Virus record (IMG/VR): IMGVR_UViG_3300007038_000006
Span: 1 to 33,445 of that record
Reading direction: 5' to 3' (one strand)
DNA from: a virus
DNA: 33,445 nucleotides
Shown here one piece after another: positions 19,587-33,445 of the stretch; within the stretch, counting starts at the first letter, position 1, and each line of letters begins with the position of its first letter. Both the position numbers and the translations under genes were made by a program. The notes below the pieces were generated by a model that worked only from the letters and a program-made list of their open reading frames with translations, did not search any database and was not told the origin of the DNA.

Positions 19587-22319
19587 ATGACAAAATTTTC
19601 ACGATTCACTGACGGTGGTGATCTACAGGAAGATGATATCATTGTCGGACTCAGAGGCGGTGTGAATACACAATTTAACTATAAAGGTGTCACATCGCCT
19701 GTTCCCGTTAACAAAGGTGGTACAGGCGCGACAGATGCTGTTAACGCGCGTCAAAATCTAGGCCTCAGTATTGGTTCCGATGTTCAGGCGCATGATGCTG
19801 ATTTAGATGCAATTGCAGCGTTAGCTAGTACGGGTATTCCAACACGAACAGCTAATAACACCTATTCAATCCGATCCATTCAACCCACTGCCAATGAAAT
19901 TGCTATTACGGATGGGGATGGGGTTAATGGGAATCCAACCGTCTCACTGGCCGCTAATTTAATCATGCCTGGTAATGAGGGATTTACGCCGCCCCAGGGC
20001 ACATCCGCTCAGCGTCCAGGGTCGCCTAATAATGGTGAATTACGTTGGAATAGTGATAATACAGTACTGGAATATTATGACGGCTCGTCATGGTCTGAAG
20101 TGACAGGGCATACGAGTATAGCGGGTACGGGTATCGTTGCTAAAACAGGAACGACAACGTATGCTACGCGTACGATTCAACCCACTGCCAATGAAATTGC
20201 TATTACGGATGGCGATGGGATTAGTAGTGATCCGACAGTTGGTTTAGCAGATAATCCCATTGTCCCGGGTAATGAAGGCATCACACCACCTCAGGGCACA
20301 ACAGCTCAACGCTCAGGCAGTCCTAATAATGGTGAATTGCGATGGAATAGCGATAATAATCAATTAGAATTTTATGATAATGGCAGCTGGTCTGATGTCT
20401 CAACGAATATTAGTATATCAGGCACTGGCATCTTTGCTAAAACAGGAACCAATAGTTATCAAACACGAACCATCCAATCAACAACGAATCAAACAGCAAT
20501 GACGGATGGGGATGGGGTTAATGGTGATCCAACGATTGCATTAGCTGATAATGCGATTTTACCGGGTAATGAAGGCATGGTGCCTCCTTCAGGGAAAACA
20601 GCACAACGTGCCAGTTCACCCACTAACGGTGAATTTCGCTGGAATAGCGATAATAATCAATTGGAATTTTATGATGGTAGTATTTGGGCGGATGTCCCTG
20701 AAATTAGCGGAACTGGCTTTGCGGTTAAAACCTCAAGTGGTTCTTATGCAACCCGCACATTAACGGATGTGGCGGCCCAAACGACCATTTCAAATGCCAC
20801 AGGGGATGCAGGCAATCCGATTATTGGACTAGCGGACAATCCGGTTCTACCTGGCACTGAAGGATTGACCCCTCCTCAAGGCACTGATTCACAACGGCCT
20901 AATTCCCCCAATAATGGTGAATTGCGATGGAATAGCGATAATAATGTTTTAGAATTTTATGATGGTAGTATTTGGGCGGATGTGCCTGAAATTAGTGGAA
21001 CTGGCTTTGCGGTTAAAACCTCAAGTGGTTCTTATGCAACCCGCACATTAACGGGTGTATCGACTGAAACGACTATACAAAATGCGACTGGTGATAATGG
21101 TAATCCAATTATTGGACTAGCGAACAATCCAGTTCTACCTGGTAATGAAGGATTAACGCCGCCATCGGGTTCAACAGGTGATCAACCAGGTTCACCCAAT
21201 GACGGTGAATTAAGATGGAATAGCGATAATGCTGTTTTAGAATATTATGATAATTTTCAATGGGTTAATATTGCTAACGAAACACAGTTAAATGGCTTAG
21301 TCTGTCGTATTATTAATGATGACGATTGGCTAAATGCCACACCGAATAAAGATTTTTTCAATTTTATTCATGAACCCATTACAACAGGCGGTGATTATAG
21401 CAGAAAAACAGTCGCCAAAATTCAGGGTAAATCCTATAACACGGATGGAACCGCGATACAGGATCTGAATAGTCGAACCGATGTTGGCATCTCATTTTCA
21501 ACCAGTAATGATGGCACGTTATCAGAGCAAATGACCATTGATAATAATGGTAATGTTGATCACAAAAATCATGATGTCAGTAATATTGCCGATTTATTTG
21601 TTAACAGTAATGTCGGTATTAAAAATACCTCCCAATCCAATCCGCTCGTTGTCGAACATTCCAGTAGTGATCCGATTAAGATGATTTGCACGTCATCTGG
21701 TTCATTTTGTGCGCTAGAAGCGGAAAATGATAATGGTGATCGAGTCTTCTTTGGCATCGCTGGTTCCACTGTCGGTTCAGGTCGCAATCGAGAAGCGTTT
21801 TTTGACTATTTTGATGCGGTGTCATTCGTTTTCAGAAAAAATAACAATGAATTATTACGGATTGATCCAGGCGGTGATGTTTCCAATACCGGCATTTTTT
21901 CATCCAGTCAAGGCGATATTAGCACGGTTAATAGCACAACGGTTAATGTGACAACCGTGAATAGCAATCGATTTAATTATAGTGATAACAAAAAGACATT
22001 AGATGATGGTGATACCTATTTAGTCTCCTATGATCATTTTATGATTATTGAAACATCAGGTTCTAATGGTATTACACTCGATTTATCAAATCATGATTTA
22101 ACAGGCAGTTTTTTGGTCACTAATTTAATCAATTATACAGCCGGTAGTGAGACGATTAATTTTACAGTGAGTGGTCCACGAACATTAACCACATTTGACA
22201 GCAATAATGGTAATTTACTTAAACAAAATACCAGTTCAACGAGTATCGATTATGATTTAGGTGCCAATGAACACATTGAAATTCAAATTTTAGACGGTAA
22301 GAATATTTATATTGGCTAA
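19587..22319 (+). CDS. Tail fibre with five tandem repeat modules
   Basis: A 910-aa protein. Residues about 35-95 contain NKGGTGATDAVNARQNLGL and VQAHDADLDAIAAL, motifs typical of receptor-binding tail fibres. Five modules of 96-99 residues follow; their PG(N/T)EG signatures begin at residues 128, 227, 326, 422 and 518, each followed by PNNGELRWNSDN and a YD(G/N) motif. The C-terminal third contains a beta region and ends with ANEHIEIQILDGKNIYIG. The repeated modules would form a long trimeric shaft; the tip is likely the receptor binder. AAGGA precedes the start. Two modules are almost identical in DNA, so length may vary by recombination. Confidence 0.82.
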   Translation: MTKFSRFTDGGDLQEDDIIVGLRGGVNTQFNYKGVTSPVPVNKGGTGATDAVNARQNLGLSIGSDVQAHDADLDAIAALASTGIPTRTANNTYSIRSIQPTANEIAITDGDGVNGNPTVSLAANLIMPGNEGFTPPQGTSAQRPGSPNNGELRWNSDNTVLEYYDGSSWSEVTGHTSIAGTGIVAKTGTTTYATRTIQPTANEIAITDGDGISSDPTVGLADNPIVPGNEGITPPQGTTAQRSGSPNNGELRWNSDNNQLEFYDNGSWSDVSTNISISGTGIFAKTGTNSYQTRTIQSTTNQTAMTDGDGVNGDPTIALADNAILPGNEGMVPPSGKTAQRASSPTNGEFRWNSDNNQLEFYDGSIWADVPEISGTGFAVKTSSGSYATRTLTDVAAQTTISNATGDAGNPIIGLADNPVLPGTEGLTPPQGTDSQRPNSPNNGELRWNSDNNVLEFYDGSIWADVPEISGTGFAVKTSSGSYATRTLTGVSTETTIQNATGDNGNPIIGLANNPVLPGNEGLTPPSGSTGDQPGSPNDGELRWNSDNAVLEYYDNFQWVNIANETQLNGLVCRIINDDDWLNATPNKDFFNFIHEPITTGGDYSRKTVAKIQGKSYNTDGTAIQDLNSRTDVGISFSTSNDGTLSEQMTIDNNGNVDHKNHDVSNIADLFVNSNVGIKNTSQSNPLVVEHSSSDPIKMICTSSGSFCALEAENDNGDRVFFGIAGSTVGSGRNREAFFDYFDAVSFVFRKNNNELLRIDPGGDVSNTGIFSSSQGDISTVNSTTVNVTTVNSNRFNYSDNKKTLDDGDTYLVSYDHFMIIETSGSNGITLDLSNHDLTGSFLVTNLINYTAGSETINFTVSGPRTLTTFDSNNGNLLKQNTSSTSIDYDLGANEHIEIQILDGKNIYIG
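19968..21290 (+). repeat. Five about 290-bp coding repeats in the fibre gene
   Basis: Module starts are at 19968, 20265, 20562, 20850 and 21138, giving periods of 297, 297, 288 and 288 bp. The block 20664-20766 recurs at 20952-21054 with only two differences in 103 bp, so those two units look recently duplicated or converted; the others are more diverged. Confidence 0.9.
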
Positions 22320-22400: not shown

Positions 22401-22518
22401 GAAAAACCGCTAAGTAATGATGGTGCAGTTTAATCTTTCTAGCTGCCTGTTCGGCAGTTAAATCATCATCACTTAACGGTTATCGCAGCGTATTTTTTAA
22501 TCTGCCTACGCGGCAGTC
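22401..22518 (-). ncRNA. Minus-strand structured RNA with two type I-F CRISPR-repeat-like hairpins
   Basis: An RNA of about 118 nt read against the surrounding virion genes. It starts next to its own promoter at 22524-22552. First comes hairpin CTGCCGCGTAGGCAG (22516-22502), then a 31-nt spacer, then hairpin CTGCCGAACAGGCAG (22457-22443). Bases 22481-22464 then pair with 22422-22405 over 18 positions. In the minus RNA both non-Watson-Crick positions (22476 with 22410, 22470 with 22416) are G-U pairs; in a + RNA they would be C-A mismatches. UUUUU follows at once (22406-22402), so this stem is also the likely terminator. The hairpins have the 5-bp stem and 5-base G...A loop bound by Cas6f (Csy4). 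It may bind type I-F Cas proteins as a decoy or guide. Confidence 0.75.
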
Positions 22519-22521
22519 AAT
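22435..22521 (-). CRISPR. Degenerate two-repeat, one-spacer type I-F-like mini-array
   Basis: In minus-strand order: repeat 22521-22494, spacer 22493-22463 (31 nt), repeat 22462-22435. The period is 59 bp; type I-F arrays use a 28-bp repeat and 32-bp spacer. By hand, the first repeat matches the P. aeruginosa I-F repeat, as I recall it, at 22 of 28 positions. The second matches the Enterobacteria form at 24 of 27 positions plus one deleted T in the 3' handle (CTAGAAA for CTTAGAAA). The first handle is altered to ATTAAAAA. No cas genes are present. The spacer pairs with its own flank (22405-22422), so it may be a structural element rather than a true guide. Confidence 0.7.
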
Positions 22522-22523
22522 TT

Positions 22524-22552
22524 ATAATATCAAACAACGGTGATGATGACAA
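22524..22552 (-). promoter_or_regulatory. Promoter of the repeat-like RNA
   Basis: Minus-strand TTGTCA (22547-22552), a 17-bp spacer and TATTAT (22524-22529); each hexamer has one mismatch to consensus. The predicted start, near 22518, falls at the first repeat. The -35 overlaps the ribosome site of the + strand gene at 22561, so transcription of the two may interfere. Confidence 0.65.
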
Positions 22553-22560
22553 GGAGCGTT

Positions 22561-22818
22561 ATGAGCATTAAATACCGAGGTGAAACGTTTCCAGGCTACA
22601 ACAAACCGAAACGAACACCCAACGCCAAAAAAAAATTTGCCGTGGTCGCTAAAAAGGGCGATAAAACGAAATTAGTACGGTTTGGTGATTCGGATATGCG
22701 CATTAAAAAAGATCAGCCTAAGCGCAAAAAAAGTTATTGTGCGCGCAGCTCAGGCATTAAAGGGGCCAATGATAAATTTAGCGCTAACTACTGGTCAAGA
22801 AAAAAATGGAATTGCTAA
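22561..22818 (+). CDS. Small very basic conserved phage protein
   Basis: An 85-aa protein, start at 22561 behind AAGGAG (an upstream GTG at 22540 lies in the RNA promoter and lacks a site). It reads RTPNAKKKFAVVAKKGDKTKLVRFGDSDMRIKKDQPKRKKSYCARSSG and ends SANYWSRKKWNC. This matches, from memory, a widespread small phage family of unknown function with an FGD...RK..(F/Y).AR and a closing YWSRKKW motif. It lies among virion genes; a DNA- or RNA-binding role would fit the charge but is not shown. Confidence 0.72.
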   Translation: MSIKYRGETFPGYNKPKRTPNAKKKFAVVAKKGDKTKLVRFGDSDMRIKKDQPKRKKSYCARSSGIKGANDKFSANYWSRKKWNC

Positions 22819-26914: not shown

Positions 26915-27004
26915 CTGGCCGTCAATAATACAATACAGCCATTAAATCAACTATTTAGCAAATTGTTTATTTTTTTTATATATTAACTATAATCGTCATG
27001 ACAT

Positions 27005-27046
27005 AACCGCTACGCCTCTTAACAATGCGCAACCTTAGCGGTTTTT
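27005..27046 (+). terminator. Terminator of the late arm
   Basis: AACCGCTA (27005-27012) pairs with TAGCGGTT (27036-27043), followed by U residues on the + strand; the loop is long (23 nt). On the minus strand there is no U tract. It overlaps the stop codon of the DUF3987 gene and would halt late transcripts as they meet the early arm. Confidence 0.5.
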
Positions 27047-28149
27047 CTGAAATACTCAACCAGATTGATTGCTTTGTTGACTGTTTCCTCATGGATCAAA
27101 TCATTATCCAAATTATTATTTTCAGCATCTTCAAGCCGCTGTAAAAGGACGCAAAATCGGTAAAAATAGGCTTCGAGCTTGCTATACATTCCAGCAAGCG
27201 TTTCATCAGCCACTTTGTTAGTCACATCAATATTCTGATCCTCCCAATCTTTGGCCGCCTTCTTATCAGCGCCATCCTTGATTCGCATTTTCATTGGCTT
27301 AGGATTGCCGTTGTGATCTAAATCTGGCTCAACATCCAGCAACTGCTTAATTAGCTTGCTATATTGTTCAATTGTTTGCTCTGACAGTTGACGCTCAGAA
27401 CGGTTTCTTTTCTTCTCATTTGGACAGAACGCAAACAGGATACGCTGCAAATAGCCGTTTTCAGCCCGTCCGTTTTTTGATAGCTCAGAAAGGCCAGACA
27501 GCGTCATCCCCCCTGAGACTGAAATAAATGTTTTGGAAACACGAAGGTATTCATCATTGGTTTTACGGTTGCAATCCGTATAAGAGCCGTTCCAAGCAGT
27601 TAACCAAAATGACTTATCAGGCCCATTGCTATATTGCTTATTATTTTTAAACAAATCAGATAATTCATCCTTGTAATAACCCAGCCCTCTTGGGTTGTAT
27701 GCACAATCCTGGATTAACGCTTCAGTCGTTGATGATTTGATCAGATGTTTTTTAGGTCTTTGTTTCTCTGTTTCACTACCTATGTACTGTTTCTTCTCAT
27801 CTGGCGTCAAATTTTGGTCATTATCAAATGGTGATTTCTTTTGTTGATAATCTGAATAACTCTCACTATCAAAGTCCTCAATAGGCTGAACGGCTAATTT
27901 AAGGGCTCGTGATTTTTTAGCGCTTGAGGGGCCAACGAGCGCCACATAAACAATCGGAAGCTCTGTCCAGCCTTTGGCTACCTCAATTTCTGCTGTTAAT
28001 CCGACTGAAACAGAGGCACTAAACAGAACAGACGTCCCCAGGTATTCCTTAGACAAACCAAGGCAAACACTCGCTTCTTCAATCAATGTTTGAATTGTAG
28101 GTGGAAATACGTTAACGGGGAAATTTATATTTTGAATTATTGTTTTCAT
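27019..28149 (-). CDS. DUF3987-type protein
   Basis: A 376-aa protein. The start at 28149 has GAGGG at five bases and overlaps the preceding stop (ATGA). It begins FPVNVFPPTIQTLIEEAS and contains VALVGPSSAKKSRALKLA, the degenerate P-loop of DUF3987 (GPSSxKKS instead of GxxxxGKS), then STTEALI, PRGLGYYKDELSDLF, KSFWLTAWNGSYTDCNRKT and GRAENGYLQRILFAF. These match DUF3987 proteins, which resemble primase-helicase-like P-loop ATPases in phages and mobile elements. At the end of the recombination operon it may act in DNA replication or unwinding. The biochemical role is unknown. Confidence 0.82.
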   Translation of the reverse strand: MKTIIQNINFPVNVFPPTIQTLIEEASVCLGLSKEYLGTSVLFSASVSVGLTAEIEVAKGWTELPIVYVALVGPSSAKKSRALKLAVQPIEDFDSESYSDYQQKKSPFDNDQNLTPDEKKQYIGSETEKQRPKKHLIKSSTTEALIQDCAYNPRGLGYYKDELSDLFKNNKQYSNGPDKSFWLTAWNGSYTDCNRKTNDEYLRVSKTFISVSGGMTLSGLSELSKNGRAENGYLQRILFAFCPNEKKRNRSERQLSEQTIEQYSKLIKQLLDVEPDLDHNGNPKPMKMRIKDGADKKAAKDWEDQNIDVTNKVADETLAGMYSKLEAYFYRFCVLLQRLEDAENNNLDNDLIHEETVNKAINLVEYFRKTAKVAHC

Positions 28150-32056: not shown

Positions 32057-33409
32057 TTAAAAATTCAAAAAATCAGGCGTGCTATGCAGCTCATCATCAT
32101 GCGCCGTGTAATATAAGGGTGCTGAGGGTGTTTTAAACTGATAAATCGTTGGGCAAAATTCCAGAACCAAACGACCCACGGGGCCACTTCTATTCTTTCG
32201 AACGAGTAATTCAGCGTAACCCTGGTTGTTGTCTGTCTTTTTGACGAGTTCATCACGATAGAGCATTGCAATAACATCAGCGTCTTGCTCAATCGCCCCT
32301 GAATCCCGCAAATCGACTGTATTCGGACGGGGGTTATTTCGGTGTTCAACCCCGCGGTTGAGTTGCGATATAAGAATGACGGGGATATTTAAATCCTGAG
32401 CAATGATTTTCAGCTCTCGTGTCATATCCGCTATTTCTAAGTTGCGATTTTGATAACTATTTTCAGATTTCATGAGCTGTAAATAATCAACGACCAGTGC
32501 TGATAATCCGTGTTTCCTCTTCAATTGTGACGCACTGCGCCGTATTTGTCCTAGTGTCGGTTTGTTAGACTGCGCAATGTGTAGGCTCAACTGTTGTAAT
32601 TTGGGCAATGTCTCAGTGATGCGCTGATACTGCCCTTGATTGAGCTTGCCTGTTTTGAGTGCCTGAGCATCGACATTAGCCATAGCACTTAAGAGACGTT
32701 CTTGTAATTGTGAAAAAGTCATCTCAAGCGAATAAAACAATACATGTTGCTGTTGTGTCGCCATATGCTGTACTAGATTCAGCCCAAGCATCGTTTTACC
32801 CGTTGAGGGCCGGCCCGCAATAACCACTAGCTCGCCGCCGTGCAGCCCTGCAGTGATGCGGTCTAGATCAGGGTAACCGGTGCTGTAACCAGTGATGCCG
32901 TCTGAGTTAGCTCGCCGATCCAATTCGTCGAGAAACTGCGTGACATGGTCACCAATGGGCTGGCTGTCGAGTGTGCTAACGCTCGATTGATCAATGAGCT
33001 GATTAAATTGCTCAAATCGTCGTTCGTCTTGCTGATCAATTGCTTGTTTAATCGCTTGAGACTGCTCAAATAGATGTAAATCATTGAGCACATTGTCATT
33101 GATATCACAGTAACTTGCGAAATTGTTGGGTTTTGGATAGTAACTCATAGACGCATTGACCATTTTTTTAGCTGCCTCAAAATCAACATCGAGTAATGCG
33201 ATATGTTCGACAACGTCGCCTGAATCATACAGTGATTTAATGGCGTCGTAAACATCGACTAACGAATTGATGCACGTTGAACGTGTTAATCGATTAAACA
33301 ATTCATCTAAGTGCTCGTTGTATTCAATCGCTGTTAGCAATATGATTGATTGTGTTTCGTACAATCTTGACCTGATCTGTTCGAGTGTGTCCGTTTTTTC
33401 AAATTTCAT
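32057..33409 (-). CDS. dnaB: Replicative DNA helicase, DnaB-type
   Basis: A 450-aa hexameric helicase that unwinds DNA at the phage fork. The N-terminal helical domain spans about 1-150. The RecA-like domain follows: Walker A GRPSTGKT (199-206), FYSLEM (225-230), Walker B LVVDYLQL (305-312), ISQLNRGVE (347-355), a sensor block DLRDSGAIEQDADVIAMLYRDE (366-387) and the arginine-finger region RKNRSGP (404-410). All core motifs are intact. The start has GGAG ten bases before and lies in the 99-bp overlap, so the gene is continuous with the replication operon at 180-2832 on the circle. Confidence 0.95.
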   Translation of the reverse strand: MKFEKTDTLEQIRSRLYETQSIILLTAIEYNEHLDELFNRLTRSTCINSLVDVYDAIKSLYDSGDVVEHIALLDVDFEAAKKMVNASMSYYPKPNNFASYCDINDNVLNDLHLFEQSQAIKQAIDQQDERRFEQFNQLIDQSSVSTLDSQPIGDHVTQFLDELDRRANSDGITGYSTGYPDLDRITAGLHGGELVVIAGRPSTGKTMLGLNLVQHMATQQQHVLFYSLEMTFSQLQERLLSAMANVDAQALKTGKLNQGQYQRITETLPKLQQLSLHIAQSNKPTLGQIRRSASQLKRKHGLSALVVDYLQLMKSENSYQNRNLEIADMTRELKIIAQDLNIPVILISQLNRGVEHRNNPRPNTVDLRDSGAIEQDADVIAMLYRDELVKKTDNNQGYAELLVRKNRSGPVGRLVLEFCPTIYQFKTPSAPLYYTAHDDELHSTPDFLNF

Positions 33410-33445
33410 ATCAACTCAACTCCAAAATTTGACGTCCTTTTCAAA
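33347..33445. repeat. Terminal overlap, right copy (circular map)
   Basis: Exact copy of bases 1-99. It carries the first 21 codons or so of the helicase and its ribosome site. See the left copy. Confidence 0.95.

Follow-up and report, generated by a model that had tools for sequence, protein, structure and literature searches.

RNA anti-CRISPRs (Racrs; RacrIF1-IF3, Camara-Wilpert et al. 2023, PMC10651486) are intergenic RNA genes of phages, with their own promoter and without cas genes, that carry a solitary type I-F repeat hairpin with the bases critical for Cas6f. Cas6f both binds and cuts RacrIF1, and binding requires C6 and G20 at the base of the stem (PMC10651486). RacrIF1 inhibits by way of the RNA that lies upstream of the cut, with active products of ~70 and 76 nt, and forms a Cas6f-Cas7f subcomplex without Cas5f/Cas8f (PMC10651486). 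The published Racr survey asked for at least 90% identity and coverage to a known repeat and used SRUFinder, which drops any candidate whose flanking 100 bp contain a partial match of >70% identity. Viral mini-arrays with guide function also exist (PMC11656645). A CreA gene has two degenerate repeats with one spacer between them (PMC9458426; PMC8501985); haloarchaeal CreA RNAs guide Cascade, with the first handle kept and the last lost (PMC9458426).

The window (the whole stretch of DNA analysed here, an entire viral record of 33,445 bases) holds at 22552-22400, on the minus strand, an element that resembles all three. Like the Racrs it is a phage intergenic RNA gene with its own (here predicted) promoter and without cas genes; both of its hairpins retain the equivalents of C6 and G20, and ~75 nt of RNA would lie upstream of the cut. 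In the terms of the Racr survey, it is intergenic, lies on a mobile element, has a promoter within 250 bp upstream and has no cas genes. Unlike a Racr it has two hairpins rather than a solitary repeat, the first repeat seems to have diverged past the survey's 90% identity, and the spacer is locked by the terminator arm. Since the second repeat-like hairpin is only 59 bp away, the 100-bp rule of SRUFinder would have skipped this layout.

Like the viral type I-F mini-arrays (PMC11656645; our contigs L110 and L129, and plasmid L250), the element has two I-F-like repeats ~60 bp apart, one spacer and no cas genes, and its period of 59 bp and spacer of 31 nt are close enough to the I-F 60/32 standard to pass on length. 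Unlike them, its first handle is degraded rather than its last, a target was not found, and its terminator uses the spacer, whereas the L110 and L250 mini-arrays have a separate terminator. With CreA of the CreTA modules (PMC9458426) it shares the two degenerate repeats that flank one spacer, but CreA belongs to a CRISPR-linked addiction module, guides Cascade and has its first handle intact, while here no seed target and no toxin partner were identified. The locus is probably a spacer-locked, two-hairpin variant of the RNA anti-CRISPRs: it would work like a Racr yet is not solitary, and it has the period of a mini-array but not the handle, nor a target that we could find. No description of an RNA with two hairpins locked by its terminator turned up in the literature searched, which covered few subscription papers or preprints.

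Architecture of the element

A sigma70-type promoter, TTGTCA-N17-TATTAT (22524-22552, minus strand), matches the consensus at 10 of 12 positions and has TG before the -10, making it an extended -10 promoter. From the promoter consensus, +1 is predicted at ~22517, 1-2 bases upstream of hairpin 1. The first repeat-like sequence (22494-22521, minus strand; ATTGA CTGCC GCGTA GGCAG ATTAAAAA) forms a hairpin at 22516-22502, with ATTGA as its 5′ flank and a degraded 5′ handle, ATTAAAAA, as its 3′ flank. It is followed by a spacer-like segment of 31 nt (22463-22493, minus strand) and by the second repeat-like sequence (22436-22462, minus strand; TTTAA CTGCC GAACA GGCAG CT-AGAAA), whose hairpin lies at 22457-22443 between the flanks TTTAA and CTAGAAAG, the latter a handle with a 1-nt deletion. 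Both hairpins are the exact type I-F core CTGCC-G(N3)A-GGCAG on the minus strand, with a hairpin-to-hairpin period of 59 bp. The terminator-like end (22402-22422, minus strand) consists of the 3′ arm of an 18-bp stem (22422-22405) and a U tract (22406-22402). The 5′ arm of this stem is the 3′ 18 nt of the spacer (22481-22464), and hairpin 2 lies inside the stem. The order on the minus strand is therefore promoter, hairpin 1, ATTAAAAA, spacer, hairpin 2, CTAGAAAG, 3′ arm and TTTTT, and the predicted start is 75 nt from the second Cas6f cut.

An earlier sequence-only reading by a model had described two I-F-type hairpins 59 bp apart on the minus strand, a sigma70-type promoter at the first repeat and the lack of cas genes; all of these are present as described, and its coordinates and its spacer are correct. 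It had also counted 18 pairs and five U in the closing stem, and the count stands, but it took the stem to simply trail the second hairpin, whereas the stem encloses that hairpin and draws its 5′ arm from the spacer. The autonomous promoter-to-terminator RNA gene that it proposed is likewise what we predict from the positioned promoter and the terminator-like stem.

Genome and setting

The record carries a 99-bp direct terminal repeat (1-99 = 33347-33445), so the genome is probably complete, and statements of absence hold genome-wide; it also looks circularly permuted. Cas6f/Csy4 had no match in this apparently complete genome, and no known acr gene was recognised near the element. The gene content (portal, terminase, DnaB-like helicase, Erf annealing protein, exonuclease VIII and endolysin) points to a P22-like podophage. 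The element occupies a gap of ~240 bp, flanked by a tail-fibre-like gene (19587-22319) and by the gene of an 85-aa basic protein (22561-22818). The 10-mer GTGATGATGA is present twice in this region, in the spacer (22472-22463, minus strand) and just ahead of the 85-aa gene, within the promoter/ribosome-site region (22540-22549, plus strand).

A proposed decoy for Cas6f

From this layout we infer transcription, binding of Cas6f and inhibition through a decoy effect. Our proposal, which we hold to be somewhat more probable than all else together, is that the ~118-nt minus-strand RNA mimics type I-F repeats and titrates Cas6f without an active guide. Transcription would start 1-2 bases before hairpin 1 and stop at the terminator whose stem top carries hairpin 2. 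The Cas6f of a type I-F host would bind the hairpins, cut at their 3′ bases and remain bound, as it does with crRNA. In the simplest model the RNA is a Cas6f sponge: hairpin 2 would be cut and held, while the cleaved 3′ fragment would stay paired to the spacer and block its use as a guide. The phage would in this way draw Cas6f, perhaps together with some Cas7f, off the crRNAs of the host. If the RNA does bind Cas6f, RNA anti-CRISPRs are not restricted to solitary repeats, and the survey's 100-bp partial-repeat rule will have missed a class. A terminator that doubles as anti-guide would also explain how a phage can carry a crRNA-like unit with no active guide.

Guide or decoy

The sequence-only reading had left the choice between a Racr-like decoy and a single-guide mini-array against rival phages. 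We favour the decoy, which is the best reading of the locus, over the guide, for which no target was detected and whose spacer is sequestered and handle degraded. A one-spacer mini-CRISPR that uses the host I-F Cascade against a rival phage or the host itself is unlikely, even though the period of 59 bp and the 31-nt spacer are near the I-F 60/32, functional viral mini-arrays are known (PMC11656645) and I-F mini-arrays are numerous in viral contigs.

The spacer is locked in silico, with 18 of its 31 bases paired to the terminator arm. Across 37 viral I-F mini-arrays, the window included, the energy of the spacer-terminator duplex against shuffles had a median z of -0.08, and that of the window is -6.08; ranked by how much the spacer pairs on average with the sequence downstream of it, a measure that gives no separation by itself, the window is third of the 37. 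The first handle (ATTAAAAA) has 5 of 7 consensus bases, against at least 6 of 7 in every one of 36 comparator arrays (oriented viral arrays of two or three repeats, with opposite-strand readings excluded by requiring a G...A loop), and decay in these arrays hits the last repeat, not the first. With the 18 nt at its 3′ end pairing with the terminator arm and its 5′ handle degraded, the inter-hairpin RNA is predicted to be unfit as a guide.

The target search that the sequence-only reading suggested for the spacer returned none, within the limit that diverged or unsampled targets would escape detection. Viral contigs gave no match with every sixth (flipped-out) position masked, named phages gave only marginal partial matches, and scores in the phage's own genome and that of its relative were no better than those of shuffled spacers. 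Genome-wide, no standard-register seed match comes with a CC PAM; one CC site (22507, plus strand) arises only when the spacer start is shifted by one, and 14 of 30 bases then match. In the other direction, none of 884 candidate I-F spacers from the fetched loci, compared with the phage on both strands, matched it (best only 24/32).

Relatives and neighbouring genes

The nearest phage found, L159/G001, found via its portal, is a distant one (portal ~50% and capsid 66% identical) that has the structural module in common; the CTGCC-N5-GGCAG hairpin is absent from this single relative. The neighbouring 392-aa and 722-aa proteins led to no further relatives. The 85-aa basic protein (22561-22818, plus strand) is phrog_7595; 267 viral stretches, diverse in their gene context, carry a relative of it. 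The hairpin pair was found in none of 80 fetched loci of these relatives; since the fetched copies occupy other contexts without the pair, we do not count the protein as part of the element. No homologue of the element was found, and by this distribution it is, as we read it, an accessory cassette of this phage.

The lack of a homologue that would show conservation, the divergence of both repeats and the 1-nt handle deletion, whose pattern ACTGCCGNNNAGGCAGCTAGAAA was not found elsewhere in viral contigs, would suit a remnant, left when an acquired I-F array decayed, with no present function. The hairpin cores are nevertheless perfect, the promoter and an exceptional terminator-like stem are precisely placed around them, and an 18-bp stem built from the spacer is not expected of neutral decay; we give the remnant a slim chance, slightly below that of the mini-CRISPR.

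Departure from chance

With at most two mismatches allowed, the 15-mer core matches the window only at the two hairpin sites (four strand matches, the hairpin being palindromic). Shuffles gave a mean of 0.66 matches, and 2 of 100 reached four. When 301 nt were compared with 4227 Rfam families, CRISPR-DR4, which fits type I-F repeats, was the top family for both hairpins, at 27.5 bits (E 3.4e-4) for hairpin 2 and 25.0 bits (E 2e-3) for hairpin 1, both below the gathering score of 35. The I-F repeat mimicry claimed by the sequence-only reading is upheld by the exact core, twice, and by this top match, albeit sub-threshold.

The minus-strand fold, which the same reading had put forward as a check, is far better than chance, with z about -6: a 130-nt piece folds at -42.8 kcal/mol (z -6.2) and the 122-nt unit at -42.0 kcal/mol (z -6.5), with none of 200 shuffles equal in either case. 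Of 3000 random sites in fetched loci, one has an equally strong enclosing stem; the stem of the element ranks first among 545 I-F hairpins, and its score is reached by this site alone among 5112 sites sampled in the window. The plus strand, read as a leader or a terminator for the 85-aa gene, was discarded: there the stem has no T tract after it and the fold is weaker (z -3.4 versus -6.2 on the minus strand).

In 2.9 million viral contigs, a scan for the paired core retrieved 76 stretches, which are recognisable I-F arrays; together with first handles of at least 6/7 in 36/36, this makes the paired pattern specific for I-F. A 30-nt query of repeat 2 aligned over 80-93% of its length, with one gap and at 93-96% identity, to repeat-like sites on plasmids; repeat 1 is more diverged. 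The close sequence relatives of repeat 2 are a mini-array of a Photobacterium damselae plasmid, which shares its GAACA loop and has a separate terminator of its own, repeat-like sites on Serratia plasmids, and a repeat on viral contig L194 that at 41.7 bits is above the Rfam threshold.

These results bear on the notion that the locus is a small RNA or terminator of the phage with no link to CRISPR, whose hairpins are I-F-like by chance; we rate this as improbable as the remnant. The sub-threshold Rfam scores would allow it, and so would the search for the host and its CRISPR type, in which alignments of portal and major capsid gave no match in 84,980 genomes. Handle matches count for little here, since the flanks are AT-rich. 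What speaks against coincidence is the pair of exact cores, both on the same strand and spaced at the I-F period, together with a paired pattern that retrieves I-F arrays from viral contigs and the close plasmid relatives of repeat 2; the arrangement is not a chance one.

A CreA- or CreR-like guide that steers Cascade to repress a nearby promoter is very improbable. In its favour, CreA genes likewise have two degenerate repeats and one spacer, and GTGATGATGA of the spacer recurs at 22540-22549 in the promoter region. Against it, the first handle, which CreA retains, is degraded here, the shared 10-mer is at the non-seed end, the genome has no standard-register seed match with a CC PAM and a toxin-like partner was not identified. 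Self-targeting of the CreA kind was rejected, as the standard-register seed matches in the genome lack the CC PAM.

A second RNA, orphan abiF

The phage has a second RNA that may bear on the Cas6f decoy. A full-length match to the abiF RNA (RF03085) lies at 27006-27043 on the plus strand and scores 41.9 bits against a gathering score of 37. Its unit (26988-27048, plus strand) has a perfect -10, TATAAT, at 26988-26993 and its own U tract/terminator, and an Abi_2 protein had no match in the genome. The AbiF toxin of C. difficile is neutralised by an abiF RNA, which can also act in trans (PMC12373285). The orphan RNA is possibly a decoy antitoxin against a host AbiF system.

An exact 15-mer, CTTAGCGGTTTTTCT, is common to the 3′ ends of the CRISPR-like RNA (22414-22400, minus strand) and the abiF RNA (27034-27048, plus strand). 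Such sharing has an expectation of 0.05 matches at up to two mismatches, yet a handful of exact 15-mer repeats is expected somewhere in such a genome; the 15-mer hints at a common terminator origin of the two RNAs. The orphan abiF RNA with its shared terminator sequence counts in favour of the decoy reading of the CRISPR-like RNA, and it supports, but does not prove, the idea that this phage collects RNA decoys. It would point to a phage strategy in which RNA mimicry disarms RNA-dependent defences. The full proposal is more tentative, with odds that we place on the lower side of even: RNA anti-CRISPRs would have a second architecture, a decoy with two hairpins and a locked spacer that traps Cas6f and whose terminator is the anti-guide arm, and this decoy would share one 33-kb phage with an orphan abiF RNA, so that RNA mimicry is turned on two unrelated RNA-dependent defences.

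Related units in viral contigs

Display of a repeat on a stem was seen at least once more, in contig L220 (~1400-1500), where a solitary I-F-like repeat sits atop a 14-17-bp stem. In L194 (~2820-2990) an I-F-like repeat is displayed on a stem and a second hairpin lies 43 bp downstream. Stem lengths under the I-F-like repeats of L220 and L194 are 12-17 bp. Four other contigs (L180, L213, L233 and L192) have mixed CTGCT-GAATA-AGCAG and CTGCC-type hairpins at ~60-bp spacing, forming two- and three-hairpin units of the kind that a solitary-repeat survey would drop.
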